A stretch of 36,709 bases of DNA. Origin: a virus. The position numbers and the translations under genes are program-made. A model generated the notes under the pieces. It did no database searches. It was not told the DNA's origin and saw nothing but the letters and a program-made list of their open reading frames with translations. The first letter of the stretch is position 1, and each line of letters opens with the position of its first letter. Shown in pieces: positions 1-29,405 of this stretch. Location of the stretch: IMG/VR virus record IMGVR_UViG_3300013094_000134, positions 1 through 36,709 of that record; one strand, 5' to 3'.

Positions 1-663
1 CAAATTCAGTTTAAAATCTAAATCTTTGCTTGAGTTAATTAAACTAGAATGTAGTTCAGTATAATGTTTAGGTGTGCCATACGCACTCATACCCATTAAG
101 ATGTATTCTTCATCTAAGGGTTTTAACCCAACTCTTTTAGTCATTGCTGAGTAGAACAATCCAATACTATCAGGATATGTTTGGCTATATAACTTCTTAT
201 ATACTGCTTTACCATTGCTATTGTAACGTGCATCCCAAATAGTAATGGTGTCGAACTCACCAATAGCATCAATCACAACTACAGTAGCATCAACAAAATC
301 ACTGGTTTGAAAACCACCTGCAGCATGACTCATGTGATGATTATGAGTATGATATTTCTTGTTGCCCAACAACGTTATTGCACCATTACTTAATTGAAAC
401 TTAGGACTCAAACTTGCTAGTTTAGGATTTTCACTTGATCTGATTTGACGTAGAAATTTTAACCAAGGTCTTTCGTAATAGTGAATCTCATAATCATCAT
501 TAACATAATGCATGGCATCAGTTACAATATCACTAGTGATTTGCTTGTCGTGTTTTATTTTGGTATAGCGTTCACTATGCCCGGCAAAAACTACATCGCC
601 CCTGCGATTGATAACACTTAATGCGGCATCGTGGAAGCCTGAACTTATTCCAATATAGTCCAT
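1..663 (-). CDS. Carbamoyltransferase, NodU/CmcH/TobZ family (N-terminal part, runs off the left edge)
   Basis: This reading frame is open from the ATG at 663 to the window edge (221 codons), so the C-terminal part is missing. Family members transfer a carbamoyl group from carbamoyl phosphate, via carbamoyl-adenylate, to a hydroxyl on a sugar or antibiotic. The N-terminus has the Kae1-like start MDYIGISSGFHDAALS with the His-Asp pair at 11-12. The metal-site pattern H109-x3-H113 appears in HNHHMSHAAGGF, followed by D132 in VVIDAIGE. The stretch EEYILMGMSAYG (about residues 185-196) matches the family's E-Y-x-x-M-G-x-x-x-Y-G signature. The start is one base after the stop of the 33-aa gene (TAATATG). 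It is the last visible gene of the glycosyltransferase, radical SAM and SGNH series, which suggests carbamoylation of a glycan; the substrate is inferred. The family call is firm. Confidence 0.93.
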   Translation of the reverse strand, partial: MDYIGISSGFHDAALSVINRRGDVVFAGHSERYTKIKHDKQITSDIVTDAMHYVNDDYEIHYYERPWLKFLRQIRSSENPKLASLSPKFQLSNGAITLLGNKKYHTHNHHMSHAAGGFQTSDFVDATVVVIDAIGEFDTITIWDARYNSNGKAVYKKLYSQTYPDSIGLFYSAMTKRVGLKPLDEEYILMGMSAYGTPKHYTELHSSLINSSKDLDFKLNL

Positions 664-664
664 A

Positions 665-766
665 TTAATAAATGAAGGGGTCTTTCTTCTTCAACTCTTT
701 AAGTTTTTTACGGTACTTGTACTCACGCACAATCTTAAACCACAATTCTGAAAAAAAGTTACGCAT
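665..766 (-). CDS. 33-aa basic peptide of unknown function
   Basis: This is a short gene between the SGNH gene and the carbamoyltransferase gene. It starts with ATG at 766, one base after the upstream stop, and ends with TAA at 665-667, one base before the next ATG; both junctions read TAATATG. The product begins MRNFFSELWFKIVREYKYRK, has an aromatic and amphipathic first half, then a Lys-rich stretch, and ends DPFIY. It may be a small membrane-peripheral or nucleic-acid-binding helix, but that is inference. No Shine-Dalgarno is evident, so translation may depend on coupling. The snug fit between two genes, with no alternative gene in the gap, is the main support. I do not recognise a characterised family. 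Confidence 0.6.
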   Translation of the reverse strand: MRNFFSELWFKIVREYKYRKKLKELKKKDPFIY

Positions 767-767
767 A

Positions 768-1556
768 TTATTTAATTTGTGAAAAGACATAATCAACAAT
801 CACTTGTTGATGGTATATTCCGGGGTGTGCAATCTCTGATCCGGGTTGTATGTCTCGTGCTTTATCAATATTGATATCATACTTGTCCCCATAGTTACAT
901 AGATTAAGAATAGGTAAGTCGGGATTACGTTCCCAAAAACCATCAGTATCTTGCCAACTAGTAACTTCAATTAATTTGATATCTGCAAGTTTACACAACA
1001 ACTTAACATTATCTCGGTAATAGGAGAACTTTCTAAGTTGATTTGAGTTTTCTGTAATATATTCTTTGAATGATTCGCGCCAATGTCTAGCTGTAGATTC
1101 TAGTGCTGGTAAGAAAAAATGCATTTGATCGTGTTCCCAAAACAAAGTTCGTGATGTTTGGGGCCAATTAACAACAATAAACTTAGGATATGTCTCAACA
1201 TTATTTAAATAATGGGTGATGTTGTAAAATACAAAATCAGGACTTGCACCACCAATTGCACCGTTAATGTAATCAATACCCAATTGATTAGCAATTCTAT
1301 AACTGAATGTTTCTTCTAGTTCCAAACCAATGCCTACAGTATTACTACATCCAAAAAAAGCAATGTGGCTATCATAGTTAATTTCATGCAATTCTTTATT
1401 CATTCTGTAGCCAAGATAATTAAAATGATAGTGTAGTGTTTTATCAGCGTAGTACCACTTTGGCCCATACTTTTTCTTGTTCTTTAGATAGGTATCTTCT
1501 GAATCAGTATGTGCAAAGTTAGATGAACATGAACGTAGTCCATCATGCGGGGTCAT
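768..1556 (-). CDS. SGNH/GDSL-like hydrolase or acyltransferase-like protein
   Basis: The product is about 262 aa from the ATG at 1556. An in-frame TTG at 1571 overlaps the radical SAM stop codon (TTGA) and would add five residues. I prefer the ATG because nearly all neighbours use it. Counting from the TTG, block I is AFFGCSNTVGIG with the likely nucleophile Ser76, block II is the Gly in AIGGAS (about 107), and the C-terminal catalytic His is H249 in AHPGIYH. The block III Gly-x-Asn-Asp is not intact; VVNWPQTSR lies at that place. No signal peptide is present, so it should act in the cytoplasm. SGNH enzymes remove or add acyl groups on sugars and lipids. Placed among glycosyltransferases, a glycan O-acyl modifying role is plausible but inferred. 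Confidence 0.75.
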   Translation of the reverse strand: MTPHDGLRSCSSNFAHTDSEDTYLKNKKKYGPKWYYADKTLHYHFNYLGYRMNKELHEINYDSHIAFFGCSNTVGIGLELEETFSYRIANQLGIDYINGAIGGASPDFVFYNITHYLNNVETYPKFIVVNWPQTSRTLFWEHDQMHFFLPALESTARHWRESFKEYITENSNQLRKFSYYRDNVKLLCKLADIKLIEVTSWQDTDGFWERNPDLPILNLCNYGDKYDINIDKARDIQPGSEIAHPGIYHQQVIVDYVFSQIK

Positions 1557-1567
1557 AATCAATTCAC

Positions 1568-2932
1568 TCAAAATTCACTCCATGTTTTATATAGTTCTGC
1601 GTATTCTGGGAAGGTTTTGACAAAGTTAGTACCTCTTCTTTTATCATGTTCATCTACAAACTTGATAAAATCTTTTCTATGCTTGACCAATAGATTGGCG
1701 TCAATGCCTTCTTTAACAAGAGTATATATGCGTTTAAGTTTCTCTAGTTCAATTTCATTAAAAACATAATTGTCAATGTTTGCTTCCATATATGCGATTT
1801 GTTCTTCAATGTAATGAAGATGGTCTTGATCCATAATGAATGCTGTTTGATGTTCAGGGAAGCGTAGATAATGATTATCTACTAGAATACGTTTGTTGGT
1901 AGTGGTTCTATACTCTAAGATGATTTTAGTCAAGTCTTCTAGCATCAATTTGTATGATGGGATACTGAGAAGATTATAAGTACACATCACCGTGAACTCT
2001 AATTTTTCATTCTTACTCAATGCATGACGAATGTTATTAAGCCATTGAAAGTAATGCATACCATGACGAATATACTCTGCTTGTTTACCATATGCTTCTG
2101 CACTAGTAAATATTTTGATTCGTTTAAGTTTGTTTTCGTTGAGAATGATGTTGACTTTTTCTAAGAAAGTTTCAAGCAATTCCCTAGGAGGATTCATGTT
2201 AGTGTTGATTGCAACCTCAAGATTAGGATTAGGATTCTCAATGATATAGTCTAATAGCTTGAATGTATTCTTGTTTAGTAATGGTTCGCCACCAGTGATT
2301 CTAAAATACTTTAAGTTCTTATACATGTCAGGGAACCATTCCCAAAATGCATCAACATATGGGTTCTCATCTTTGTTTGGAATAGGTAATGCATTCTGCC
2401 CTTTTAACCAATTTAAGTTGTTAAACTTTTCGCTAGTTGGATAGGGGCCATAACGCTCAATCTCTTCCATCCATTGACTACTAATGTGAGGAGCACAGTA
2501 ACTACATTTAAAGTTACACACGTTTCCAAAACTAACCTCAACATAACTAGGATCAATATTTTCATCCCAAGACTTGCTCAGTACTTCGTTTATATAGGGT
2601 CTAGCCCAATACTTGTCCGCACTCTTAAACACTCTATCACTTGTTTCACCTGCATCCTCGATACGCCAACAGTAATCACATTCTTCAGGGCGTTTACCTT
2701 CAAGCATTAACTTACGTTGCTCTTTTTTGTAATCGCTGTTATGTAATGCGGTCTTGTTACGTTTTAATTCTTCAATTGAAACGTGATGTGTTGCAGGGTG
2801 ATGGCAACTATGTGTATGACCATTTTGCAAATGCATTGTCACTTGCTTCCACTTTGCTACACAGAATGATGGGCTAATCTCATTCAATTCATTAGTAAAT
2901 TCTTCTACCTGTTTCTTTAACTCGTCTTGCAT
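1568..2932 (-). CDS. Radical SAM protein (twitch-domain-like)
   Basis: This 454-aa protein has the radical SAM signature C139-x3-C143-x2-C146 in VCNFKCSYCAP, the site of the [4Fe-4S] cluster that reductively cleaves S-adenosylmethionine. RITGGEPLLNK (about residues 238-248) is the GGE motif that binds the SAM amino group. Ahead of the barrel, C24, C43 (in THSCHHPATHH), C85 and C88 (in ECDYCWRIED) could ligate an additional iron-sulfur cluster; this is inference. The protein is soluble. Its ATG at 2932 overlaps the upstream stop by one base (TAATG), and its own stop at 1568 abuts the SGNH gene, so it belongs to the coupled cluster. The substrate is unknown: sugar, peptide and nucleotide modification are all possible. 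The superfamily call is secure. Confidence 0.92.
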   Translation of the reverse strand: MQDELKKQVEEFTNELNEISPSFCVAKWKQVTMHLQNGHTHSCHHPATHHVSIEELKRNKTALHNSDYKKEQRKLMLEGKRPEECDYCWRIEDAGETSDRVFKSADKYWARPYINEVLSKSWDENIDPSYVEVSFGNVCNFKCSYCAPHISSQWMEEIERYGPYPTSEKFNNLNWLKGQNALPIPNKDENPYVDAFWEWFPDMYKNLKYFRITGGEPLLNKNTFKLLDYIIENPNPNLEVAINTNMNPPRELLETFLEKVNIILNENKLKRIKIFTSAEAYGKQAEYIRHGMHYFQWLNNIRHALSKNEKLEFTVMCTYNLLSIPSYKLMLEDLTKIILEYRTTTNKRILVDNHYLRFPEHQTAFIMDQDHLHYIEEQIAYMEANIDNYVFNEIELEKLKRIYTLVKEGIDANLLVKHRKDFIKFVDEHDKRRGTNFVKTFPEYAELYKTWSEF

Positions 2933-3867
2933 TACCAGCCCTCTATTTTTCTAATTACATCAATCTCTTTAACGAGAGGACCTAAGTTACGTTTGTCTTT
3001 GTTATAGTGTCGCTTAAAGAAACGACTTTGTTCACGGTCTAGTGTATTGATTGGCAAGTCTAGCTTATTGCGTAAACTATTACCAAATAACTCTGCGTTA
3101 ATTCTTGGGTCGTTATCTTTATGATCTTGCCATAACTTTTCTAGGTTATCAAACCATTGAACTTGTATAGGGTCAAAGTCTTGTGTCATTGTCATGTGTG
3201 TGCCAAGTCTTGCACCGTAAATAGCCCACATGCCATTTTCTACGTCTGCGCCTACATTGTGCCAAATAGTTAAATTGTCTAAGTTACGACTTGGTATACG
3301 TTTAAATTCATTTACATTGGGAACTAATCCCCCAACTAAACACATCTTAACACCCTCACGAAATCCTGCACGCCATGCCTGAAAGGGTGTGTAGTTTGGA
3401 TATGTTGTACTGTAACAGTCGTTCATACTCCAATATAAACTGTTGTTATAGTCTAAACAAAAGTCAACAGTTGTTTTACTATTGCCATCACTGTTTTCAT
3501 GTGTCTTCATGTTCATAACATATTCTTTTGTCCATGAACTGATGCCACCGTTACCATACACTAAGCCATTGATATTGTTTCTAGCTTTCCAACGATATTG
3601 TGCGTTGGTGTATGATTCGTCTTTATCCGAATAGTCCAGTATTAGGTCAAAGAAACTACCATCGGGGATGTTGTCACCGTCAATTAAAATAAATCGTTCA
3701 GTATCAGATTCTTCTGCGGCTCTTTTATGAGCCGCATCACTGCCCTTAACGCCGTCGACACGTCTGGCCCAGGGTACCATGTTTTTAATCTTGAGCCAAA
3801 ATTCTTCTTTTTGTGGTTCATCATAGCTAAGATATACACAAGCCAAGTCTTGTATTTCAATTTTCAT
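2932..3867 (-). CDS. Glycosyltransferase-like protein (GT-A type, DGD motif)
   Basis: The product is 311 aa. Near the N-terminus is VYLSYDEP (about 11-18), then GSDAAHKRAAEESDTERF, then LIDGDNIPDG with D63-G64-D65. This resembles the DXD metal- and nucleotide-sugar-binding motif of GT-A glycosyltransferases, placed after about 60 residues of Rossmann-like sequence. The middle (YGNGGISSWTKEYV, about 104-117) is aromatic- and Gly-rich like an acceptor site. The ATG at 3867 overlaps the end of the 92-aa gene by 11 bases. No membrane segment or signal peptide is visible. The donor and acceptor cannot be told from sequence. A nucleotidyltransferase of similar fold is the main alternative. Confidence 0.7.
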   Translation of the reverse strand: MKIEIQDLACVYLSYDEPQKEEFWLKIKNMVPWARRVDGVKGSDAAHKRAAEESDTERFILIDGDNIPDGSFFDLILDYSDKDESYTNAQYRWKARNNINGLVYGNGGISSWTKEYVMNMKTHENSDGNSKTTVDFCLDYNNSLYWSMNDCYSTTYPNYTPFQAWRAGFREGVKMCLVGGLVPNVNEFKRIPSRNLDNLTIWHNVGADVENGMWAIYGARLGTHMTMTQDFDPIQVQWFDNLEKLWQDHKDNDPRINAELFGNSLRNKLDLPINTLDREQSRFFKRHYNKDKRNLGPLVKEIDVIRKIEGW

Positions 3868-4135
3868 AAACTGTTAAGTCCCAATAAACTGGATCGGTTT
3901 CATCAATTACCAGTATGTTTTCTCTGTGACACATTGTGCCTTTATCTTTAGGGATTAGTTTTAGTATATGCGTACCTGCTGCTAATACAACAGCTTTATT
4001 GTCAATCACCCGCACGTCATGCCTTGCTGACATATAGGTTATTTTGTCTATTACTACATACTTTCCCTCAAGGTCTTCAGTAGTATAGCATACAATTTTA
4101 CCTGTGTCATCATAATAAAGACGATATTCAACCAT
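3857..4135 (-). CDS. Small conserved-looking protein of unknown function (92 aa)
   Basis: The 92-aa product begins MVEYRLYYDDTGKIVCYTTE and has alternating hydrophobic and polar stretches typical of a small all-beta fold, with a strand-turn-strand start and a YVVIDKITY segment. It carries no catalytic motif, signal peptide or membrane helix that I can see. Its start overlaps the preceding glycosyltransferase stop by 8 bases, and its end overlaps the next glycosyltransferase start by 11 bases, so it is embedded in the coupled cluster and very likely translated. An accessory role to the neighbouring transferases is inference only. Confidence 0.7.
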   Translation of the reverse strand: MVEYRLYYDDTGKIVCYTTEDLEGKYVVIDKITYMSARHDVRVIDNKAVVLAAGTHILKLIPKDKGTMCHRENILVIDETDPVYWDLTVYEN

Positions 4136-4883
4136 AATGTTTACTCAATTTATAACTAAAATTTTTAATGTGATAGTGAAATGGGTAACATTGTGGGAAT
4201 GTTTGTACCCGTAATGGGTCGGTAAACTCATATGTCAATTCGTTTGTCCAATTGTCACCTATTGTATTGATAATAAACTTCTTCATATGCACCATACTGA
4301 ATTGAGTAAATTCAGGCATTGTTGTTTGTTCTACGCCAACCAAATGACAAGCAATACTATATACCCAATCGGTGGTTGCAGGCTCATTTGGATCACATTT
4401 AAAAATTTGTCTATACTCATCCCAATTTTCAAATATGTTTCTGACTGTGGTGTAAAACTGTTCTGCTACATCGCTTTTTTTAAAGTACGTGATTGCGTTA
4501 TATACATCAGGTAAATTGTTGTCTTCTATAAATTTACGATATACTTTAACATCAGATACTTCTCCTTTATAATTTCGTATAGTAGTGCTTATTACCACAT
4601 CTCTGTCTTTTAGTACATCCCACCAATAGCTGATATCATTGGGTATATACATATCAGCTTCAAGTTTGATAGTGTATTCATAAGGGCTTGCATCATATAC
4701 TTGCCAATCGTTGATAAGTTTCCAATCACTATCAGGAGCTTGATCTCCGTAAGGCAATACATCAAGAATAGTGACGTTAGCATCCGGCATTGCTTTTAGA
4801 ATGCTATTCTTTAATACCTCTGCACACTTAACATAATCAACACTATCTGTGTTTTGTGCTACTATTACAAATCCTTTATCCAT
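4128..4883 (-). CDS. Putative glycosyltransferase (GT-A-like, EAD motif)
   Basis: The 251-aa product starts MDKGFVIVAQNTDSVDYVKC, a Rossmann-like opening. It then has ASPYEYTIKLEADMYIPND with an E75-A76-D77 acid pair where GT8-like enzymes carry DXD. The upstream 262-aa protein has a parallel stretch (SPYDETLVLDSDYVV), so the two look like diverged paralogues. TTDWVYSIACHLVG (about 170-183) may form the acceptor pocket. The ATG at 4883 overlaps the previous stop by 8 bases. It likely adds a sugar during glycan building, in the cytoplasm. Donor and acceptor are unknown. The replacement of the first Asp by Glu makes activity less certain than for its paralogue. Confidence 0.65.
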   Translation of the reverse strand: MDKGFVIVAQNTDSVDYVKCAEVLKNSILKAMPDANVTILDVLPYGDQAPDSDWKLINDWQVYDASPYEYTIKLEADMYIPNDISYWWDVLKDRDVVISTTIRNYKGEVSDVKVYRKFIEDNNLPDVYNAITYFKKSDVAEQFYTTVRNIFENWDEYRQIFKCDPNEPATTDWVYSIACHLVGVEQTTMPEFTQFSMVHMKKFIINTIGDNWTNELTYEFTDPLRVQTFPQCYPFHYHIKNFSYKLSKHYG

Positions 4884-5664
4884 TTATTATCTCTGTAAAA
4901 TTTGTTTTGTTAAGCATATGAAAATCAATATCTTTGATTTTTATATACTCAGTACGTTTAACTACTCTAGTAGCAACGTAGTTGGTGTCAAATTCATCAC
5001 CAATTTTATATAGTTTTGTTTTTTCATTCACGTGCAACAAGTTCCAAGGAATATAGTTAGTTGTATCTTCTAATCCACCATTGACAATATGCAATGCAAT
5101 AGCAAGCGCATAATCGTTTCTATACGGTACGGGTACGAAACTGTATAGATTACTATAGTGTATATAGTTCTCTTGTATCATTTTGATACAGTCAAATATT
5201 TGTTTTGCTTTATCTGTTTTTTTAAATGCAATGACAGTAGCCCAAGGACAACTAAAACTATTTGTACTAATAATATCTATCGGGGCATCAGGAAACATCA
5301 AATAGATTGCGGTTTTAGCGCACATGAAATCGGTATAAGTATCAAAAATTTGATTTAGTTTATCGGTGTTGACTACATAATCACTATCCAAAACCAATGT
5401 TTCGTCATACGGTGATAGTTCGTATGCACGGTATCTATCTTTGTTTTTCCAAACATCTTTTTGTTTATAGTTATCTGATTGTGCAGATACTAACAACACA
5501 TTATCAAACTGATATGATTGGTTGCTAGGTAGGGATTCTTTATCCGTAACTAGTGTCACTGGTAGATTTAAAAAGTGATTGACTCGTTTAGCACAATATA
5601 CTGCCATATCATAATAGTTGGTAGTATCATTGTTGAATGCAAATAGTAGTACACCGCGACTCAT
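4876..5664 (-). CDS. Putative glycosyltransferase (GT8-like, DSD motif)
   Basis: The 262-aa product opens MSRGVLLFAFNNDTTNYYDM, followed by a second strand and helix (LPVTLVTDKES, about 34-44). It carries ELSPYDETLVLDSDYVVNTD with D93-S94-D95, a good DXD metal-binding motif of retaining GT-A enzymes such as GT8. Further on, SFSCPWATVIAFKKTDKAK (about 136-154) resembles the strand after the nucleotide-sugar pocket. The start codon overlaps the stop of the 101-aa gene (ATGA). It is the first of three transferase-like genes in the cluster, suggesting stepwise assembly of a short glycan; that role is inferred. No membrane anchor is seen. Confidence 0.7.
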   Translation of the reverse strand: MSRGVLLFAFNNDTTNYYDMAVYCAKRVNHFLNLPVTLVTDKESLPSNQSYQFDNVLLVSAQSDNYKQKDVWKNKDRYRAYELSPYDETLVLDSDYVVNTDKLNQIFDTYTDFMCAKTAIYLMFPDAPIDIISTNSFSCPWATVIAFKKTDKAKQIFDCIKMIQENYIHYSNLYSFVPVPYRNDYALAIALHIVNGGLEDTTNYIPWNLLHVNEKTKLYKIGDEFDTNYVATRVVKRTEYIKIKDIDFHMLNKTNFTEIING

Positions 5665-5966
5665 CTGGTATTCTTTAATTCTTCAAATTCATTATACCAA
5701 TCTTCCATAACTTTGGTATATACATTCTTTGTTTTTGCTAACAGTGTTGGCCTGTTTACTTTGATGGGATTTTTATAGTCATCTAACAGAATTATTATAT
5801 CATCATCTAACGTACTCAACAATGAGATAAGTTCTACACTGGCGCGCCATAACCCATTTTGGTCAGCAAAAATCAATTTGCTGGTATATTTGTCATTGAG
5901 GTATGTTTTAGATGCATTGAAGCTGAAACGAGCTTTAGCATCTGCGATTAAAGTTTTTGTATCCAT
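5661..5966 (-). CDS. Small phage protein of unknown function (101 aa), first gene of the left cluster
   Basis: The 101-aa product begins MDTKTLIADAKARFSFNASK, has a central beta-like part (LIFADQNGLWRASVELISLL) and a charged helical end rich in Trp, Tyr, Glu and Lys. The pattern of an N-terminal helix, a GLW-containing strand pair, an acidic DDD stretch and a C-terminal helix suggests a compact alpha/beta protein. I do not assign a function. A tail-assembly or adaptor role is possible given the fibre genes immediately upstream, but nothing proves it. The ATG at 5966 lies inside a perfect 11-bp hairpin with no obvious Shine-Dalgarno, which is unusual in this window. Its stop overlaps the next gene (ATGA). 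Confidence 0.75.
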   Translation of the reverse strand: MDTKTLIADAKARFSFNASKTYLNDKYTSKLIFADQNGLWRASVELISLLSTLDDDIIILLDDYKNPIKVNRPTLLAKTKNVYTKVMEDWYNEFEELKNTR

Positions 5967-5987
5967 GTGAATATTTACATGGATACA
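5958..5987 (-). promoter_or_regulatory. Perfect inverted repeat enclosing the start codon of the 101-aa gene
   Basis: TGTATCCATGT at 5958-5968 is the exact reverse complement of 5977-5987, giving an 11-bp stem with an 8-base loop. On the minus-strand transcript the start codon of the 101-aa gene (5966-5964) lies in the 3' arm. The 5' arm holds an out-of-frame AUG followed directly by UAA. No U-tract follows on either strand, so it is not a standard terminator. A translational switch is the inferred role; a protein-binding DNA operator is the alternative. Confidence 0.6.
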
Positions 5988-6002
5988 TCTTTACCATTAT
6001 TT

Positions 6003-6992
6003 TTATATGTACGATTGACTTGCTTGAACTAAATATGTTCCCCATGCTTTTACCAATGGAGAAGATGACCCAGAATCTGAAGATAGTGCTGGTCTTACAA
6101 TAGTTAACGCAATTTGTGTTCCCACACTTACAAACAGTGTTGGTGGAATTTCACTCCAAATAACTTCAATAGTAACACTGCTACCATTGTCATTATTCCC
6201 ACCTTGTGTACCATTTGTGTTAGCACGTACAGTAATGGATGAACCTAAATAATTAGAATAAAAACCTGTATCCATGCGTTGTTTGAATATTTCTGTACTT
6301 GCTGCGGTTAGTCCATAATATCCTGCTTGTGCTAGGAAAGAATCAGGGACTGCACCTTGTTGAGTAATAACTTGTGTAAGTCCTTGATAATCCACACCTG
6401 CAATATGTGTAGTTGATGGACTTAAACCAGGAGCACTTATAACCAATGTACCTATTTGTTGGCATAACAATCTAAACATACTATCCAACGGTGTACCAGT
6501 AGGATGCGACATAGATAGTTTTAATTGTCCGCCTGCATTAAAGAAATATCTTGCTGCATCCCCACTTGAGAATTGAACAGTAAATGTATAAACTGCTTGA
6601 TTAGACCAACGTTGAGTTGATGTAATTATAGCCGGAGTAGTTGATACTTGACTTGCCGCATTCAAATAGTTGCTTGATAATGTACTGATGTTAGTTGAGA
6701 TACTAGAAATATATCTAATTAGTGCCTGTGCATCACTACCACTGTTTGACGGTACGTAATCTGGTTGAGTAACATATTGAGAACTAGGACTTTGCTGTGC
6801 TGCCAAAGCAGATATCACTGAGAGGATAGAATCCCATTGTGATGCAGTAACTTCATTGCCTTTAGTAACTAACGGAATAGCTGTTTGACCTAACCCTTGA
6901 GGTCCAGAACCAGTGGCCCATAACGTATTAAGCTGGGTAGCAAAAGTATTATAGTCAGAAGCCTGAATTAAGCCATTGGTTATGTATGACAT
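6003..6992 (-). CDS. Tail fibre-like / virion structural protein (329 aa)
   Basis: The product is 329 aa. The N-terminal third is helical and Ala/Gln/Ser-rich (SQWDSILSVISALAAQQ), with LIRYISSISTNISTLSS as a short coiled-coil-like stretch. The rest is beta-rich: VYTFTVQFSSGDAARYFFNA (from about residue 133), then a Gly-rich segment, then SVTIEVIWSEIPP and a TQIALTIVRP strand near the end. This layout, a helical stalk followed by a Gly/Ser/Thr-rich beta domain with no catalytic motif, fits a phage fibre or fibre-tip protein. It lies directly after a clear fibre gene with an AAGGA ribosome-binding site 6 bases from the ATG. The exact position in the virion is unknown. Confidence 0.65.
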   Translation of the reverse strand: MSYITNGLIQASDYNTFATQLNTLWATGSGPQGLGQTAIPLVTKGNEVTASQWDSILSVISALAAQQSPSSQYVTQPDYVPSNSGSDAQALIRYISSISTNISTLSSNYLNAASQVSTTPAIITSTQRWSNQAVYTFTVQFSSGDAARYFFNAGGQLKLSMSHPTGTPLDSMFRLLCQQIGTLVISAPGLSPSTTHIAGVDYQGLTQVITQQGAVPDSFLAQAGYYGLTAASTEIFKQRMDTGFYSNYLGSSITVRANTNGTQGGNNDNGSSVTIEVIWSEIPPTLFVSVGTQIALTIVRPALSSDSGSSSPLVKAWGTYLVQASQSYI

Positions 6993-7001
6993 TTAAAATC
7001 C

Positions 7002-8213
7002 TTACTTAGTGATTGACACTACTGCAAGAACAACACCGGCTGTCATATCTGTTTTATCTTCTAAAGCACGACCAATAACGTTAAATGCTGTCATTTCTTC
7101 TCTCTTAGCAGCACGAGCATATCCTCTAATACCCGCACTGACCAAACGTTGACCTTTTTTGACTTTACCAATTACTTTAACTGGTACACGACCTGATACA
7201 GCGATTGATGGATGTGTTTCATCACTACCAGCAGCACCGTTCATAGTGAAACCAGCTGTGGTAGAAATAACCCCGAATACATCTTCGCTTAAATCAGTTT
7301 CAACAGCAGTAATTTCTTTATCACCGCCAATTTCAACGACTGTACCTGCATCATATATAGCGTCGGCTGCAAAGCGTTCTGCCAAGTCAGCATATGTTGC
7401 ATTGATGCGTGATCCTGTCTCTAACGTCCACACACCTTGAATTGTGCCTCCACCTGCTAGTCGTGTTGTTGTAACTTGAGTAGGTGCAATGTTACCAGTA
7501 AACTGTGTAATAGCATTTGCTCCAGTTAAGAAATCACTGACATTACCGTTATTATATGTACCGGTTGGGTTGAATGGTGTACCGTCAGCATTCATGTAGT
7601 TACCGCATTTGATACCAAAGCCAGTACCAAAAACAATATTACCTGATGTTACAGTTAGTGCATTACCTACGCCATCTACGTTCCATTTACCTGTCAAAAG
7701 ACCTGGATTAGCATTTGAACCAGTTGAAACGATTCTAGTATTAACTACGTTTGCATTAGCAGTAGTAATAGTTGCAATGTTTGTTGATAATCCAGTAGAA
7801 ACTGTCACAGATCCAACTGTGATAGTCCCAGCAGTTAATAGATTAGTAACGTTAGCATTGTTTGATGTTACGATATCACCGGTGATAGTAACATTACCCA
7901 AACTTGTTGCCCCTGCACTTGTAGCACTAGTTAATGTAATCCAATTACCCGCGACGGTTGTACCGTCTGCTGGGCAAATATTTAATGTATTTGTAATTGT
8001 GTTAAACCACAATTGACCTTTTAGTGGGTTTGAAGGAGGAGTATCATTTGCGAAATTCTCCAACATTCTCACAAAGTTAGTGTCTAAAGATTGACCATAA
8101 CCTGCATAGTTGCGTCCAGGAAGTCCCAGACTAGTACTAGTTGTATTAATTGTACCGTCTTGAATAGTTGTAAGAACCGTTGAATTATCGCTTCTTATGA
8201 TTGTATATGACAT
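7002..8213 (-). CDS. Tail fibre protein with C-terminal Peptidase_G2/chaperone-like domain
   Basis: The 403-aa product starts with a phage-fibre-type attachment domain (SLGLPGRNYAGYGQSLDTNF, then ENFANDTPPSNPLKGQLWFN; about residues 28-72). Residues 95-270 are a Val/Thr/Asn/Gly-rich repetitive shaft (VTITGDIVTSNNANVTNLL), as expected of a beta-stranded trimeric fibre. From about 272 the composition changes to a compact charged domain (YADLAERFAADA ... THPSIAVSGRVPVKVIG) resembling the intramolecular chaperone/self-cleaving domains at the ends of phage fibres and spikes (Peptidase_G2 type). Such domains guide trimerisation and may be cut off. GGAG at 8221-8224 is 7 bases before the ATG, and a late-promoter-like site lies upstream. 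A role in host-surface recognition is inferred from context. Confidence 0.82.
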   Translation of the reverse strand: MSYTIIRSDNSTVLTTIQDGTINTTSTSLGLPGRNYAGYGQSLDTNFVRMLENFANDTPPSNPLKGQLWFNTITNTLNICPADGTTVAGNWITLTSATSAGATSLGNVTITGDIVTSNNANVTNLLTAGTITVGSVTVSTGLSTNIATITTANANVVNTRIVSTGSNANPGLLTGKWNVDGVGNALTVTSGNIVFGTGFGIKCGNYMNADGTPFNPTGTYNNGNVSDFLTGANAITQFTGNIAPTQVTTTRLAGGGTIQGVWTLETGSRINATYADLAERFAADAIYDAGTVVEIGGDKEITAVETDLSEDVFGVISTTAGFTMNGAAGSDETHPSIAVSGRVPVKVIGKVKKGQRLVSAGIRGYARAAKREEMTAFNVIGRALEDKTDMTAGVVLAVVSITK

Positions 8214-8220
8214 TTAAATG

Positions 8221-8241
8221 CTCCGATATCTTATATTTATC
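8221..8241 (-). promoter_or_regulatory. Late-promoter-like GATAAATA and Shine-Dalgarno for the 403-aa fibre gene
   Basis: Read on the minus strand, GATAAATA occupies 8241-8234 and ends 20 bases before the ATG at 8213. GGAG (8224-8221) sits 7 bases before it. The octamer resembles the T4 late promoter TATAAATA and starts right after the stop codon of the preceding gene. Promoter activity is inferred. Confidence 0.5.
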
Positions 8242-9043: not shown

Positions 9044-12000
9044 TTATCTATTTCCGGAATTTAAGAATTCAGCCGCAGTTGTTGTGCTAACTGATAATGG
9101 GTCACCAAACGCAACATAGTTAGAACTATTCCACAACACAGAAAGCTGACTTGGGTCAAGTTTTCTAGCAGGACTTAGACTATAAACATAATCATATTGA
9201 TGATGTGTAGTAGTAACTGTATTTTGTGCGTTTCTAGTCAATCCTGAAATGATATTTGTTGAAGGATCAACACTAGCAAATTGGATTCTTTCGCCATTAG
9301 TTTCTAATAAATTACCAACATATACAGTTAATTTAACAACATCGTTGACAGCAGTATTTGGGTCATCAAACGAAATACCGTATGATCCCAAGAATCTTTC
9401 AAATTTAATATTCTCTGCTGGAATTGTGGTTCCTTTATTAATATTAAATGCCGTAACATACGTAATAGCATTGGTGTCGAAATCAGTCAAGAAACCAATA
9501 TCACTGTCGTTGTAACTATTAATCAAAGAACTAATTTGAGTAACAGTTTTAGTGACTGATATTTCTTCAACTAGTTTAGAAATATCATTTACAAACATTT
9601 CGGTATCAGTTAACCCGAGATCAACTGTTAACCAAGTTCTATCAGTTGGATTTGCTCTATAAGCTGACTGTACACCTGTCTTATCAACTAGTAACTTGAA
9701 GCCTGATGGGTTAGGACTTCCACCGTCAACAAACGCAGTTACAATAACTTTGTCACCGTTATATAATCCATAAACAGTTAATTGGTTGCTAGCACCATAG
9801 ATATATGCTGTAGATGGCAAACGTCTTCCGTTTAATGTCACCCATGATTTAGTTTCATCAGTATATGTCATATTGGGCATTGGGTTAGGTACTGTTGGAT
9901 AAGGAACAGTTATCACCAAATTACCGTTGTGTGATGCTGTTGCTGTAGTCGTTGATGCAAATAATCTACTTGTATCATAGTATGAAGTATATGCAATCAA
10001 ACGTGAATCATCAATAGAAGTTGTAAATGTTAATGTTGATCCGCTAATTGAGTACGCAGTTCCAGGAACTTGTCTGATGCCATCAATTTCCACAATGCCG
10101 TTAGCGGCATTCAACCCCGATGTAGGTAACGTCAATGTATATGTAAGGCTTCCACCTGATGCACCACGGAATGTTTGTGTCTGTGGATAAGAATAACCAT
10201 ACGGTGTTGAGTGATTAGGTGTAGTTAAATCACTGAATACTGAGTATAGAATCTTAGTGGAAGATTGGTCATATGCTGTGTTGAATTGAATTCGCATAGG
10301 TTGACTACCTGATCCAGTCTCGTAAGGTAATAGATCATAATCAACACCTCTCACTAACTTAGTATTACTTGTAGTAGTTTGTACAAAGATCAATGGATCA
10401 GTTTCAAGCGATTGAAATAATACATCCAACAAAATCATACTATGACCAGTAACATTATCAACACGGAACGGTATCAAATCAGAATTACCTCGAGTTAACT
10501 CAACACCGTTACCAACTTCATATACCTCAACCATCAATGACTGAGATACGTCAATTGGTATATTCAATGTGATAACTCTATTAAACCAATCTACAGTATA
10601 TGTATATGGGTTATTAGGACTAACCGTTATGTTTTCATAAACTCTAGTATAACCTGCATATGTAGGATCATAATAGAACACTGCAATTTGAATAGGATTG
10701 ATTACCACACCATTAAAACTAAATTGATTATTAGCGTCGGGTCTACCTAAAACTTGAGTCATGCTAAAGCCAGAATTTTTATACCATTGAAGCCCTGTAT
10801 TATCAATATCCCAATATGCGCTAGGCGCAGTATTTACTTGCATACTAATAGCATCTGATACGATTCCGGGTACTAGTTCTTCTGGTCCATAACCAAACAA
10901 GAAGTCATTGCCTTTAACAATATATGTAGGATCTTCTGATGCTAGACTAGATTGACTTACCCAGCTGATTCCATCAATACTACGAAGGATAGTATCATTG
11001 TCACCCACAGCATAGAAGAAATTACCATCAAACGTTACATTGTGCAAATTTTCTGTAGTAATAGAACTGTTAGATTCTTGTACCCATGTTTTACCATCAC
11101 TAGATTTTAAGATTAAACCAGGATCACTTGCCCCGGTACCTGTCTTGTTACCTACAGCAACAAACAAATTATTACCATAAGCAACACTATTAATCTTTGC
11201 AGTAATAGTTGTTCCTGCAATTGTTGCTGCGGACCAATTGTATGAGTTTACACTATAGAAGATTTGAGCGTTATCGCCTACAATAACAATCAATGAGTTA
11301 CCGTGAGTCACGCCAGTTAGTGCATATTGTGAAAGTCCAATTGGATGTGTGTTCCATGTAACACCATCAATACTTGTTATAATTCTAGTAATAGGATTAA
11401 TGATAGGAGCTGAGGTGTTTATACCAGAAATAATCTGACTTCCCAAACCAACTGCAATATAACCAATATATGCAGGGATATTAACGTAGTCAATGTCATT
11501 CAACACGTTTGTTAATCTACTATTGAATTGGTACAATGTGTTCCATTTCAATGCATCGGTGCTACTAATAATTTGTGTACCAACCGCATAGAAAGCACCG
11601 TTTAAGTACTTAACTTTTTGCAATGGTATAGTAGGAGCAGTGATTGCAGATACATCAAATTCACCAATATCATAACGCAGGTCATCATAGTTCTCTTGTG
11701 ATCCTATAGTTAACCAATTACCTAAATCAAAGCTAACCATCAATCCTGACGTAGATGTGTTAGTAGTTATCACATATGTATATTGATGATGCGCTATACC
11801 TGTACCAGGATCAGTTGTAATCAAATCATGTGATGCGATACTAGTTACACCCAATGGTATCTCAGACAATGTAGTTGTATACCAAATTGTAGAATCAGCA
11901 CTTCTAATTATAACTGTTTTAGTCGGTGTGTCTACTACCGCTAGATACTGTGAGTTATCATTAATAATTGATTTAATGTTAGGGTCAACTGGATAGAAAG

Positions 12001-15000
12001 GTCTGTCAACTAGAGTAGCATCTAATGGTAGTTGATCTGTTGCACTGAACTTATTACCATAATATGTTGGATTAGGATAAGTTACACCTTTCAACAACTG
12101 TTGAATGTCTTTAGCAGGCATATCAAATGATGGTTGATAGAACCCTTCAATTCTGTCTAATGCATTTAGACCAAAATCACTTTGACTTATAGGTACCCAC
12201 TTAGTAGGATCAAAATATGAATCATGATTAGTCTCAATACACTGCCAAATTGTATTTGCATAGCTTGTTAATGAACGAGTTGAATATTCAAAGTTCATAT
12301 TGCTATACAACGGTTCTGGCAAGAACGCATAATCTGTTCCTGGATAACCGTAACCATTTGAAGTATAAGATGTTGAACCGTCCCAAATGAATGATGATGA
12401 TGGAACTTCAACTTTTAATGTTGGGTCAAAATAGATACCCAATTGTGAGTCATTGATTGCTTTAACATAATATTGTTGGAAGTCGTTAACGGGTGTTCCA
12501 GTAACACTTACCAAATACACTGATGAGTCATTATTGACCTGTATTATTTGAATAATAGCATCATTTGTGTAATTTGTTCCACCTAGATATGAACCCAATA
12601 CACGTAATGTTTGTCCTTGAGTATATCCTGTACCGCCTGCAATTAAAGTAACAGTATAGTTGTTAATGATTTTTCCATCATTGAATGTAGGTCTAGTTAC
12701 CATAAACTGAGCGCCACCGGTATCAGTAAACAAATAACCAGCATGTACACGATAGAAATACAGTTGTGTACCATTAACTTGACCAGGTAATAATCTACTA
12801 TATGAATAGTCAACTGAAATTACCGCACCACCTGTACCAGATGATTGTAATCCTAATATTGGTAACACTGCACTTTGTAAACTTGTAGTGTCTACAGTTG
12901 CAGGTGTACCCAACACTTGATATGTTAAAATTTTACCTGACCCATTAACTGATGTTACAAAGATATAGCAATTATTTGCGCTACTTCCTTCTAAATGTAG
13001 TCCGGATATAGTTATAATACTACCGGTAAAGTTTGATAATGCTTGAGTTAGTGTCCATGATGATACCCAAGCACCAGAATTATACCCAGAACCCCCTGTA
13101 GTTAGGCTAGCCTCATATATTCCTGCTTCCACCCAATTCAACACAGTGAATGTGGCACCAGAACCACCTAAGGGACTAACAGTACTAGCATCTAGACCAA
13201 TCGTATAAGTTGCAGAATAGCCCAAAGTGCGATCTGTGTTTACACTTGAAGATGCATTGTGAAAAGCACTTGACCAATATTGATTTGGTGTCCAAGGAAC
13301 TACGGTTGATCTATAACTTGTTCTATCAAATTTAAGTGTAGTTCTAAATCCACGAACCTGCGAATTATTTGCATAAACAACAGCGTATGCACATACACCA
13401 ATACTATGAGTATATCCACTAGATAAATTCTCAACAGGAGTAAACGTGATAGGATTTACTTTTCTTAAACTATCTCCATAGCTTTTGTGGAATGAAATCA
13501 AAGATAGACCAGTAACTTGTTGATAGAATACGTTGATATAATAGTTTCCATCGGGAATAAATGTTAATCCATTAGTACCACTACCAACTGATCTTACTAA
13601 ATCACCAGTATTAAACTCAGAAGTTCCTAAAACAATAAAACCGTTATTGTTAATAGCACTAGTAGAGAATGCAAATGTGATACTTGGGTCAATGATAATT
13701 TCAGGTAATACAACATACCCTTGTCCTGGATCATTTATAGTAATACCAATAACTTTATCACCTGACATGATTGGTGACAATACTGCAGGGATTGACGGTG
13801 CAGGATAAATTGTTGTATCAATATATGCGACAATGTTAGGAATAAATGTATATCCCCTACCTTCATTCAATAATGTTACACTAGGTATATCCATAATAAT
13901 TTGAACGCCCGGGATATGGAATGTAGGTTGAGTGGCATTCAATCCTCTATTGAGACCGGTCAGTATACCATTTTCTCTATCAATACCTGTATAGCTAATC
14001 AATTCAGAATCTACAAGAATAATACCCTCGACTGGCATACCCCTTGCATTATCAACATATAATACAGTGTCATTAGGTCTTAGATATTGGTTAACAAACG
14101 CAACTACAACATCAGGACTATCAACTAAAGATAACCCAAAGTTGTCATGCCATCTGATGAATTCAGGTGAACTAGACCAGATTGGATCAGAATCTTGATA
14201 TTCAAAACTATTAGTTGGACCTTTAAATGTCAATTGAGGTGATACAAATCTACCTAAATTACTATCAAAAAATGTTGGTAAGTCAAAGTCTGATATGGTA
14301 CCTGTAATAGTATCTAATGCAGAGTATTCTAATGTGAACTCTTTGATAACCACATGATATGGCTTTATTTCATTCAAATAGCCTTCTAATAATCCCAAGT
14401 TATCTGAACGATACTTAGTATCCTGTGCTAAGGTTCTTACATTATAAGTGATATCTGCAAAACTTGTTTTGTTCAACCAAGGTAAGTAACCATTTGAAGA
14501 AACACTTTCGCTAGAGATAAATTCAAACATCAAGATCAACGCTTTATTTCTATATGCAAATAAATCGTTAACGAAAATCTGTTCAAATATACCACGAACA
14601 ATGTAACGAGATTCTACTGTTGGGTGTGCATCAAATCCTGATGCATCAAAGAAGTCATTACCAAAACCAATCTTGTTATTAGCATAATCATACAAGCTAC
14701 TTAAGAAGTTGATAGTTCCGTCTTGTAATCCAACACGATTCCATACACTATTTGTGTATACATAGATTTCTCGTTTACCTTTACCATTCTTTGCAACACC
14801 TACAATCATACCTTCATATGCACTGAATGTTAGTAAATCAGAATAAGTTTGAACTTCTAGGTTAGTTTTAGTAGTGCTGGAATAGCCAGTAGCATACCAA
14901 TAGGTATATTCCCAATAAATTCTGGTGTCAAAAGTATCACTGTATTCACTTAACAATGTTAAGTTTTCAATCTCACTGATTGGATAATTTACAATAATAT

Positions 15001-18000
15001 TATTTGTGAATTCAATGAAATTTTTCAGTGCAGCAAATCTATCAACAAACATACTTTGACGTGGTCTAATGTTTGTTCCAATTTGTAACATCTTAGGTAA
15101 TATTGGGTCGGGTACAACTGCACCAAAACTATCACTACCTGCAAAACTATCAATCAATTTCTCATAGACACCAGTTGGATCAGGATTTCCTCGTTTAGCA
15201 TCAGGGAATCCTGATAAGAAGTCTTCAGGATAATCTGTTCTAATTAACTTATAATCAATGTGAGCAGGGGTATCATTAGTACTTGTACTAAAGCCAATAT
15301 GCAAGTTAGTTGTCAATCCATTGATATAGTTATTTGCATTATAGATACCATATGTATTTGAACGTAATGGAACCATAAATGCTATACCAGAATTAGTTGG
15401 ATTAGCAATATATTGAGAAATTGTATAATCGCTTAATGTTTTTCCTTGTAATGCATACAATTTGTTTGTATTCTTGACCCAATAATAGTACATAGGCACG
15501 ATTGCATGATTAGCATCAGTTACGAATGTCACTGCATACTTAGAAACATCATACGGTGTTCCGGTTGTATCTTTGTATAAATTAGGTGGGTTCAGTGATT
15601 CTACCCAAGTGTAAACATCTACACTGCTTCCTGGGAATGTTTGTCCCCAATATTTGCTGTTGTATGAAACATCATTTTGATGATAGTCTAAGAATCTACT
15701 TGTAGATACATCAAACCAAATACTACCAACTTGATTTTTATTCCATACAATCTTGCCTTTGTTATAGTTTGCACTATTGTATCCGGCTGGGTCAATTGAA
15801 GTAGTGTAGTCAATGTTTTCTGCCACAGCCCCCAAGAACTTACCTTGTAAAGGATCAATATAATCTAAAGACAATAGTGTCTTATCATTTGTGTTATCAA
15901 ACAATTGAACTTTTTGTACTTTGCTAATATCTACAATACTATCAGGGTAGCGATATGTAGTCCAGTTACTTGTACCTATACTGTTTCTGTACATTACAAC
16001 TTTACCACCGGCAGTATCTAACTTGAAGTTAGGTGCACCAATCATTAACAAATTGTCTCTAAAGTCTAAGGCATTACCATACATAGGCAATGTACCATAA
16101 TCTTGTACGGTATCATGACATGGTTGTGCATAGATATAATTACTTAGATTCAACAATGATTCGTTATAGCAAGGGATATAATCAAAGATATATACCGCGC
16201 CAGCACGATCAAATGAATCAATAAACTCAGTTAAGTTACTATCAAATGCAGTTTGACTATGTATATCCATTGTATAATCATAATCAAATGTTGTTTTTAA
16301 GAATCTATCAGTTACCGGGGCGCTTACTGCGATTGAACCAGTTTCATTAAATTTAACAACAGTACCAAACAATGAATTATGTTGTGGGTGTGGGTTAGAA
16401 ATAGTTTGTGTCTTGGTATACAATGACATACCCATTTCAGTAATGACATTACCATTCAATGCCATGACGTTGAGTTTGTTCTCACTTTGACCCAATGTGG
16501 TATCAATCAAAGAAATAATCAATCTATCTTCATTATCGGTACCAGCAAACACGTTTACAATATTTGTTTGATTAATCACATATGCTATGTCAGCGGCGTC
16601 GCCTAACGGGATAACAACTTGCAAATCACTTGCAGGCCACACACCTGAAGGATATGCACTTGATGTTAAATCTGTTGCAAATGCAATAGCTAATGTAATC
16701 ACACCAGTAGTAAGATTGACACTAGTATATTCCATAGTATAATTATTACTATAGATATTCTGAATGGTCAATATACCAATTTGCGGCATTCTTGCTGCAA
16801 TGTCAGGACTAACTGATATCGTAGTTGAACCGTGAGTAAAGCTACTTGTTGAATCAACAGATAAAAACAAGTTAACAACAAAACCATTAATATAAATGTA
16901 TGTGGGTTGGAATGAGTCCGCAGCAACTAATGCACTCATTGTACCAAATTTTCTACCTTCACAAGTAAATCTAATTACAGCACCTTCTTGGTCGTTATCA
17001 ACTACACCGTTTGGTACTCCAACCATAACTTCACTAGCCCATTTATTACAAGCAACACTTGCACCGAACAATTCTCCTGGACGCAAATCAGCATAGTTAG
17101 TTGACTTCATTAAGAATTGAGAGAACACTAAGTTGTAGCTTCTAAATGTTAATATGTCACCTGCTTTTAATCCAACTGGCCCAATCAAGATAACAGTACC
17201 CACGTTTGTTTGTGCATTGCCAGGGATAATAATATATTTTGTTGTTGGTAGCGGAGTTCCATTCCACAAAACAATGGAGTTAGCTGTGGGGATCCATGCA
17301 ACAGTTAAAGCAAAGAAAGGTGTATTAATGTTTTGGTCATACTTGATTTGATAATTTTCAATAATAGCATCGGCTACCCAAACACGACCTACATTAGAAA
17401 TTGTATGGACATTGTCAGTAGTGGTAAACGAAGCATTAGGAGATCCAACAAATACACGAGTACCGTCATAGTTAGTTGCAATACTTGCACCAAAGTTATC
17501 ACCAAAGTTAACAACCGGAGGTTGTGCTGCACCTACTAATTGATAGTTAATATGAGAATGATATACCGCTGCACCTGCAAGAGATATATGTTGCATTGTA
17601 CCTACGATAAAGAATGTTGTACAATTAATAGTTGTTGTGATATCAATACTAGCATTGTTGCTTGGTGCAGTATTGAATGTAATATAGTTACCAGTAAATG
17701 AGTAAGTAGAAGTTGCTTGCACTGTATTATTAATTTTAACCACAGTGTTTGCTGAATTTCTTACAGTGTTAGGTGTAGAAATATGCGCTAATCTAAATCC
17801 AACAGTAACACCGTCACCTGTATAGTCATTTACTAGTGTGTTTTCATACAAACCAGTAACAACCGTGTAGATAATATCTTGGCTAAAGGATGCTGCATAC
17901 ACAATTGTACCATTGTATGTAGTAACTGCTATAATTTCTTCAGTATATACGGTAGTTGTGTTAGCATCAGGATCGTAAGATGTATGAGTTACAGTATATA

Positions 18001-21000
18001 ATTGGTCTCCTGCAGTACCGGTATTGCTGAAAGATACTTGAATACCAGTATAGATGTTTTGACTTACGTCACCTTCACATACAAAGTAGTTATTGTTTTG
18101 AATTGCATTAATTGCAAGAATACCAACTTGTAGATAGAATGTTATAAACGAGACACGCTGACCTTCAGTAATACTAGATAAAGCGTTACCAAAAATGACA
18201 AATGAGTTTTTGTTTAACGTTGTTGGTTGTGCTAACACAAAACCCAAATTAGTGAATTCTAAATTAGGGTCTCTTGCAAAAGACAATAGATATTCTGATG
18301 CACCATAATCACCCTGTTTATTTTTTGCACCAACATATAATACATTGCTATCACCGGAGATTGCCATAGCATAGCCGGCTTTCACATGATAAGGATTCCC
18401 ATCACCATCTACGCCTGAAGGTAAGTTAATAACTTGCTCAAGCACGGGGTATCTGATATTACTTTCGCTAGGAATTCTATAGATAAAGATATGGTTATTT
18501 GTATATGTGTCGTCTGGAGATGATACCACCATCACTTCATCACTGTAAACAATTACTGATCCAAATGCTGCAACAGTCTCAGTTTGATTTGTTGCAGGAT
18601 TATACCATCCATCTTTATATGATAGGAAATAGTCAGTAAAGAAAGTGCCGTCGCCATTGATGCTATCCAAATAATGATATATTTTGTTGTCGGCAGCATC
18701 TCCAACTACATATCCTAACACCGGCACATTTGCAACTGCTGTACCAAACTTAATAGTAGTAAATGCATTATTGCTTCTAGTTTTAGGTAGTTCATTATGT
18801 AAGTAGTTAGGTGTTTTGCTATAAACAGTCCACTCACCGTTTTGATTCTCATCTACCCAAACTAAATTAGTATCAAATTCTTGATTGTTTAACGGTAAAC
18901 CAACAATATCTCTAGAAGTAATAACACGTTGACTTTGTAATAAGAAGAAAGCTCCGTATCCGTTAACAACTGATGTGGTTTTTACTAAGTTACTTGTAAC
19001 TACAATTGAAGTTAAATTGTTGATTGCTTTTACAGTATAGTAACCATCAACTCTGGAATCAAAGTTTAGTATACCTACAATTTGACTTACTTGTAAATTG
19101 TGTGCACCGGAGAAATTGACAGTGATTGTTCCGTTTAAGTTATTAATGATATTAGTTACTGCGATGTTTGTTGGCAATGGTGTATATACATCCCAACTAC
19201 CATTGACATTGGCTAACCAAATATAGTCACCTCGATAGATTGCGTAAATACTACCGTTTGGTAATGAAGCTACATTATATCCCAATTCAACAACATCATC
19301 AACATTGACGTATCCAGCTGTTGGGATTCTACCAACAATACTAGATTCACTTAGTGTTGCTAAGATATTAGTATTTGAAATATTTCTAGCATAGTTCTTA
19401 ACTTGATTCAATGGAATCTGTTGCTGACTGCCTTCTACATTAGTGTCACCAACAACACTAACAATCGCTGGATTTCCAGTAAGTTTAGATTTGTCAAGTG
19501 TAACTTGAATAAAGTTGTGGTTATTCAAACCACTGTACTCACTGTTCTTAATAGCCCAGTTTTCATGTACAGTATAAGACAATTCATTGTTGTTGATTTG
19601 AATACCATTCAATCCTTGTGCAGCTTGATTAGTACCTTTAGACTCAATCATGCTCTTATACAAGTTAACTTGTGAAGGATCATCAAAATCAGCATCAGAT
19701 AAGTATGGGCGTGGTCTATAACCAATCAAACTAAAGCTCAACAAATCAGCATCATTGGCTAAGTTAGCTTGATTAGGGTTGTAGAACTTGATTGACTCCA
19801 CAGATTTTGTACTAGGGTTAGGCAACATGTTTTGTTGAACCATATCATATGTTGTTTGATCCCAATACTTATTGTCAAAAGTTGCACTTGGTTGAACCAC
19901 ATCAACATTAGCCATCCAATAGCTGTTCTTATAGTTAACTACTGTACCTTTAACATATTTTGTATTGGCTTGCCAATCATTGATATTGTCTTGTGCAAGA
20001 ATAAACCCAGCAGCATTCAATGAACCATTCCAATTTGCAGATTTAGAACCACGCAAGAAAATACGTTGTTGGCGTAATCCGGTTACTGGGTTATAAATCA
20101 AGTCACCAAACAATGTTGTATTGTCAAATACAATAACATGTTCAATTGTACTCACTGTTGCATTGAATAGTGAAATTGAATCACCTGAATTCAATGTTTG
20201 AACTGATAACTTTGTATCTGAACGAGTAATAGCTAAATCATTTATTGCGATTGGCAATAGATTTTGATTTAAGATAAAGTTGTCTTTTTGCAATGTCAAT
20301 GGTTGTACAATTGATTGACCATTATCAACCACAAGTTGACTTGTTCCTGGGTTGATACTAATAGTTGAACCAACAGTCCATCCTGTAGTAATCCAATAGA
20401 GAATCTCATTCAACATTTGATCCCAAGATAGAACAATGCCGTTCTCTATATTGTTGAATTGGAACCCTTGACTTTCTAAATAAACACCGTAACCTTTAAC
20501 AAAGGTCAATAAATCTTGAATTGAATAAAACTCAGCGCCGTACGGATAGACTTGGCTGCTAGTTGCATCAAAGTTTCTAGGTATTTGAACTGAATTTGTA
20601 TTAACAGTAATAGTATCATAGATACCTAATTTAGGCAAACACGCTGAAAAATATGAATTGAACTGTTTGTTACCATAAACTTTATAACCATTTTGAGTTA
20701 TTTGAATAATAATACTTGAATAAACTAATGTGTCTGTTGGTTGATTGTTATATAAAAATACACTATAACTATCGTCGGGAATTAATAATGAATTGGTATT
20801 TGTAGAACTCATTTCCAATGAGAACTGCAAGTGTGACTTATCACTAAATCCAGCCATTCTATATGCTAGTCTTACATCGGCGTTAGTGAATAAGTTAACG
20901 ATTTGACTGGTTCCGTTCATACCAAACTGTTTTTGATAATCAATAATCCAGTTTAAGTAACTATGTTCTGCTGATGTAGTATCAGTTCCATAGAAATTCA

Positions 21001-29398: not shown

Positions 29399-29405
29399 AC
29401 TTTAT

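Follow-up and report, generated by a model that had tools for sequence, protein, structure and literature searches.

Genes and hairpin at the locus

The window (the whole stretch of viral DNA that was analysed, 36,709 nucleotides) carries on its minus strand a run of overlapping genes headed by a gene for a protein of 101 amino acids, and the start codon of this gene lies in a hairpin. The genes and the parts of the hairpin are as follows.

1..5664, minus strand: overlapping downstream genes, in an order kept in about 80-90 loci
1-663, minus strand: carbamoyltransferase N-terminus (PF02543)
1568-2932, minus strand: radical SAM gene (NCBIfam N_Twi_rSAM, 340 bits)
5661..5966, minus strand: 101-aa gene behind the hairpin, with a confident predicted fold, weakly DUF4376/prefoldin-like
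5958-5987, minus strand: hairpin, exact 11-bp stem and 8-nt loop
5958..5968, minus strand: 3' arm ACATGGATACA, containing the ATG and codons 2-3 (from the repeat, folding and accessibility prediction)
5975..5980, minus strand: ATG-TAA mini-ORF, not conserved, its TAA overlapping the putative promoter box
5977..5987, minus strand: 5' arm TGTATCCATGT (from the repeat and folding), covarying with codons 2-5 in relatives
6003-6992 and 7002-8213, minus strand: two upstream virion-type genes, whose late transcript can run on into the hairpin

The 101-aa protein matched nothing in Pfam, PHROG or NCBIfam, and a tblastn search of 50,697 deposited phage records found no relative. Its structural model is confident (pLDDT 95); compared with the PDB it gave no significant match (the best were prefoldins, E 0.2), and compared with viral models it gave weak matches to DUF4376 (E about 0.03 to 0.05) and one clear uncharacterised homologue. 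The two upstream and four of the downstream genes have homologues at matching places in roughly 80 to 90 loci. A preliminary description of this DNA had named the downstream genes a glycosyltransferase/radical SAM/carbamoyltransferase cluster; we recovered the last two identities, and no glycosyltransferase family was matched among the downstream genes. The overlaps of 1-11 nt that it reported between these genes are present, and the overlaps, which are kept in relatives, make translational coupling of the downstream genes plausible. Further upstream, adjoining baseplate genes, a single ORF of 5495 aa occupies 9044-25531 (minus strand), and in the jumbo phages Atu_ph07 and GAP32 the corresponding position is taken by very long virion genes.

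Read on the minus strand from 5987 to 5958, the hairpin is TGTATCCATGT-AAATATTC-ACATGGATACA (arm, loop, arm), an exact 11-bp inverted repeat around an 8-base loop, just as first described. The ATG of the 101-aa gene (5966-5964) falls within the 3' arm, and the ATG of the mini-ORF (5980-5975) begins in the 5' arm, 14 nt upstream of the gene's ATG and out of frame with it. No Shine-Dalgarno precedes the start of the window's 101-aa gene, again in agreement with the preliminary description. Both the ATG-TAA and the absent Shine-Dalgarno are peculiarities of the window's lineage (most relatives have ATC-TAA and AGGAG), and the significance attached earlier to the mini-ORF was not borne out: its UAA is part of the putative promoter box.

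The hairpin is the longest among the perfect short-loop inverted repeats of the window, and folding the RNA of 5940-6020, a check that had been proposed earlier, gave -16 kcal/mol, whereas shuffles averaged -7.3 (z -4.1, with no shuffle equalling it). Dinucleotide shuffling of the window nevertheless produces a perfect stem of 11 bp or more, with a loop of 3-10 nt, in 13 cases out of 100; the inverted repeat by itself is weak evidence, unremarkable against chance, and the case for the hairpin therefore rests on relatives. An intrinsic terminator was considered and rejected (no T run follows the stem, the tail being AAAAACTTT, and the site is not among the terminator sites found).

Pairing of the two arms among relatives

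An initial search with the 101-aa protein yielded 29 loci, and a profile search widened the set to 73 distinct upstream regions, window included. For each locus we compared the 8 nt preceding the putative promoter box with the first 8 nt of the gene. At least six of the eight positions pair in 67 of 72 distinct loci of the same gene order, with compensatory changes, so that the conserved pairing which the preliminary description had proposed to look for in syntenic relatives is indeed found. In register, pairing averages 7.4 of 8 positions, and registers slid by 1 to 3 give at most 3.8.

Because the first eight coding bases are nearly constant across loci, the outer pairs were tested as well. 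Comparison of each locus's own arms with swapped arms gave z 6.1 for pairs 1-8 and z 7.1 for pairs 9-11 (codons 3 and 4), and pairs 9-13 keep z 4.7 once near-duplicates are thinned, values from which shared ancestry is not fully removed. It is this conservation, not the rarity of the repeat, that makes the hairpin credible.

A predicted late promoter between the arms

The sequence between the arms is itself informative, and three further features are needed to describe it.

5972..5978, minus strand: box GTAAATA, resembling a late promoter (64 of the 73 distinct loci have CTAAATA)
5966..5966, minus strand: predicted transcription start, the A of the ATG, from the T4 box rule (PMC1524935) and the 5-nt spacing peak in five relatives
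8234..8240, minus strand: late box ATAAATA, 20 nt upstream of the start codon of 7002-8213

The core TAAATA lies between the arms in all 73 distinct loci and is preceded by C in 64 of them; the motif is also the strongest upstream signal in a 360-kb relative (ATAAATAC, 24 occurrences against 0.4 expected). The canonical T4 late box TATAAATA is absent from both strands of the window (seven expected from shuffles), and variants of the box were therefore sought. Such variants are known among T4-type phages: the T4 box spans -13 to -6 and Aeh1 uses CTAAATA (PMC1524935), CBB and GAP32 use ATAAATA (PMC5259590), and S-PM2 has NATAAATA. The Aeh1 form matches the box of the relatives at this locus, and as in T4-type systems the box is accompanied by a gp55-type late sigma homologue (homologous to GAP32_238) in G003, G006, G007, G011 and G013; no gp55 homologue was found in G002. 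ATAAATA boxes precede several genes of the window, despite its lack of TATAAATA. The TATCCAT arm was also considered as a general upstream promoter element and set aside, the motif occurring once per genome.

With the end of the box at -6, as the T4 rule has it, five nucleotides separate it from +1, and a late RNA starting by this rule would lack the 5' arm at every one of the 73 distinct loci. The Shine-Dalgarno begins exactly at the predicted +1 in 61 of 71 relatives, and among the box-led genes of five genomes just 2 of 95 Shine-Dalgarnos start before +1; both counts support the assigned start. The gene's own late promoter thus probably lies within the hairpin. Our main reading, to which we give a probability of roughly 0.7, holds that a late promoter sits within an inverted repeat, in the style of T4 e, soc, 49 and I-TevI, and that the mRNA is leaderless in the window.

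The device would work as follows. RNA entering from upstream, likely originating at the ATAAATA box at 8234..8240, would carry both arms, fold, and bury the AUG of the 101-aa gene. A late RNA polymerase with a gp55-type sigma would recognise TAAATA inside the repeat and start 5 nt after it, past the 5' arm (5977..5987), which is predicted to be missing from this RNA, so that no stem could form and the AUG would be open. In most relatives the late RNA would begin on the Shine-Dalgarno; in the window's lineage the leader would be gone, +1 would coincide with the AUG, and the gene would be translated as a leaderless mRNA. The hairpin would then act as a silencer of read-through RNA and not as a riboswitch-like gate. 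The sequences themselves show the pairing of the arms and how it covaries, the box and where it lies, and the peak in spacing over the clade; promoter activity, the start site, repression of the read-through RNA and leaderless translation are inferred. Most of the loci L001-L028 and L118-L179 have their Shine-Dalgarno in a small hairpin of its own, TACTC-NNAG-GAGTA, the 5' half of which is likewise missing from the predicted late RNA.

Predicted accessibility agrees with the burial of the start codon that was claimed at the outset: in the window the probability that the AUG is unpaired is 0.0006 on read-through RNA versus 0.78 on late RNA, and the means across loci are 0.05 and 0.58, respectively (ordinary genes without a box give 0.44 on read-through RNA). 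The upstream genes are of virion type with a late box of their own, and the separation of early from late expression that accounts for the device in T4 is not evident here; because the upstream genes appear late too, we consider insulation from upstream late transcription, rather than timing, as a possible benefit of the hairpin.

The window's own box speaks against this reading. GTAAATA, shared by the window and loci L001 and L002, departs from the [AC]TAAATA form to which the relatives conform, and in five relatives it is followed by an ATG at 4-6 nt in 6.8% of cases versus a background of 7.1%, that is, without excess; TGTAAATA, the form found in the window, has a weak excess there (12.6% versus 6.8%, 12 cases). 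It is best described as a weak variant; its G forms a pair with the C that stands two bases ahead of the ATG, and may have been favoured for the stem at some expense to the promoter. The promoter in the window is predicted from homology with the CTAAATA relatives, from the exact spacing and from conservation in L001 and L002. The lack of enrichment of GTAAATA before ATG, together with the missing Shine-Dalgarno, would also suit a lineage with a promoter degraded by the C-to-G change and a deleted Shine-Dalgarno, in which the hairpin is left as a relic and the gene either is expressed poorly or starts at another site. We think this unlikely: L001 and L002 (protein 88% identical) keep GTATCYATGTAAATATTCACATGGATAC almost intact while nearby upstream sequence differs, the 5-nt distance is the modal leaderless spacing in five relatives, and leaderless spacing at this locus recurs in L026 (CTAAATA, 5 nt) and L165 (GTAAATA, 4 nt).

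Somewhat less probable again is the interpretation closest to that of the preliminary description, namely a hairpin (a thermosensor, or gated by a ligand or protein) that is switched on a single transcript and sets translation of the whole cluster. The stem is conserved and buries the AUG, and the downstream genes overlap, as this would require, but the promoter core lies within the hairpin in all loci, and with TAAATA so placed the gene's own late transcript is expected never to form the stem; a start inside the hairpin, which the preliminary description had named as refuting its inference, is thus predicted for this RNA, and control of the cluster by opening and closing the stem is unsupported. 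Loop and stem sequences vary between loci with pairing alone maintained, and the in-register stem ranges from fewer than 6 to 16 bp, which is more what one expects of a simple blocker than of a tuned sensor; no conserved sensor sequence (riboswitch or RNA thermometer) was seen among the loci. The hairpin as first observed is therefore confirmed, and its regulatory interpretation is supported in part.

We regard as very improbable a role for the repeat as DNA (a repressor operator or a cruciform) instead of RNA. Perfect palindromic arms do lie on either side of the promoter, and binding of I-TevI to the late promoter of its own gene has been described (PMC2988022), but each genome has the 5' arm motif only once, the arm sequence changes with the codons that it faces, and changes that leave a G-U pair are tolerated: C-to-T changes preserving G-U are common (33), T-to-C changes opposite A are rare (4), and changes that break pairing are less frequent than those that retain G-U. 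This tolerance points to structure at the RNA level. Coincidence, in which the Met-Asp-Thr start would dictate the 3' arm and an extended promoter the 5' arm, has in its favour the near-constancy of the 3' arm over 8 nt and the 13% of shuffles with such a repeat, but we give it practically no weight, for it is already contradicted by covariation, the 5' arms tracking codons 2-4 (where codon 2 is GAC the arm is mostly GTGTC, not GTATC; ACAAAG lies opposite CTTTGT in L013, L026 and L120, and ACAACG opposite CGTTGT in L119), and by the syntenic locus L029 (protein 33% identical, the same layout of gene lengths as the window), which has a 13-bp stem of unrelated sequence.

Leaderless spacing across the clade and known systems

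The predicted late promoter within the repeat, with its start on the AUG, places the window gene in a larger class. In five related jumbo phages, 114 ORFs have an AUG 4-6 nt after TAAATA; the distances from TAAATA to ATG peak at 4-6 nt (38, 61 and 15 ORFs) and again at about 16-28 nt, against an expectation of fewer than one per position for the five relatives combined. Counted independently of ORF calls, ATG stands 5 nt after [AC]TAAATA at 99 of 803 sites, and GTG, TTG and CTG show no comparable excess at that distance. A Shine-Dalgarno of at least 4 nt precedes 6% of the 4-6 nt genes versus 59% of the late genes with longer spacing. Across 18 clade contigs, some of which overlap in sequence so that not all cases are independent, the pattern occurs 262 times with a 5-nt gap versus 21 times with an 11-nt gap; the corresponding counts for 13 named phages, which include T4 and jumbo phages, are 29 and 21. 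T4 has no ORF with an ATG 4-6 nt after TAAATA, and neither T4 nor the 12 other cultured phages (T4-type and jumbo) have an excess at 4-6 nt, so this sign of leaderless late mRNAs runs through the clade and is absent from all 13. About one third of the clade's late promoters stand at leaderless spacing, from which widespread leaderless late mRNAs may be inferred, and membership of the window gene in the 5-nt class would explain its missing Shine-Dalgarno. The relative L139 lies on a phage contig of 524,565 bases with 38 matches to the leaderless-type pattern.

The window offers a second example, in a gene for a baseplate protein.

29399-29409, minus strand: ATAAATA box of the gp25-like baseplate gene, ending 4 nt before the ATG, with no Shine-Dalgarno

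Leaderless spacing is found at the gp25 gene of the window, G013, G007, G002 and G003, and a Shine-Dalgarno leads the gene in G006 and G011; since these orthologues differ in spacing, the two modes can replace each other. Tentatively, and with the odds well against it, the clade might run a leaderless late programme (the late sigma placing +1 on the AUG in about a third of late promoter-proximal genes) with a phage or host factor that favours, late in infection, 70S or leaderless initiation, in which case the hairpin would leave the leaderless start as the window gene's sole usable one, and the phage would switch its kind of translation as well as its promoter. Searches of open-access literature turned up no account of T4-type phages with leaderless late genes. 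If confirmed, late structural genes of the clade, including the gp25 baseplate gene, would be made without a Shine-Dalgarno, providing a natural, testable system for high-output leaderless translation, and gene calling would be affected, in that starts directly after TAAATA would be trusted.

Leaderless spacing and a hairpin are not usually combined. In the five relatives, pairing across the promoter exceeds swapped controls for Shine-Dalgarno-led genes with a box 14-32 nt upstream (z -9.1), genes without a box show no excess (z 0.2), and the class of leaderless-spaced genes has no surplus of hairpin pairing (z -1.4); by this comparison the window gene is an unusual combination. The strongest cases of cross-promoter pairing include HNH and GIY-YIG homing endonucleases, so that homing endonucleases are among the genes with a promoter in a hairpin here as in T4.

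The long early RNAs of T4 e, soc, 49 and I-TevI are silent and their late RNAs translated (PMC3014915, PMC2988022), and in these genes, as also in segB and Aeh1 mobE, a promoter placed in the structure frees the start region on the late RNA. The locus resembles T4 e and I-TevI in having the late-promoter core within the repeat, the 5' arm upstream of the predicted +1 and the start region in the 3' arm. It differs in that the gene, neither a lysis nor a homing gene, heads a tail-adjacent cluster; the arm covers chiefly the beginning of the coding sequence; no Shine-Dalgarno precedes the window gene, for which a leaderless mRNA is predicted; and read-through would come from late upstream genes. 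The comparative evidence is strong that the T4 gene e/soc/I-TevI device is present in a new clade, extending this classic form of control to a large clade of uncultured phages.

The many boxes 4-6 nt before an AUG, where T4 has none, recall instead leaderless mRNAs such as that of lambda cI, in that the AUG is at or beside the predicted 5' end without a Shine-Dalgarno and AUG alone, not GUG, UUG or CUG, is enriched; lambda cI is an isolated gene, whereas in this clade, under a T4-type sigma programme, apparently one in three late promoter-proximal genes is of this kind. T4 gene 25, also a phage late gene, has a conserved stem at its start as well. That stem aids initiation by bringing the Shine-Dalgarno closer, whereas the hairpin here hides the AUG.

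Two other genes bear elements of a related kind. A promoter-in-hairpin element precedes a NifU-like Fe-S scaffold gene in G003 (L104:10062-10442, minus strand), the protein of which is up to 85% identical to Burkholderiales proteins; this is suggestive only, and hosts may be betaproteobacterial. A connector-type gene with a match to the PHROG head-tail adaptor Ad2 (L030:12912-13697, minus strand, with counterparts in G011 and G002) has a stem of 9-11 bp around GATAAATA, and the arm sequence differs between genomes, making this stem a candidate for another case of compensatory change.
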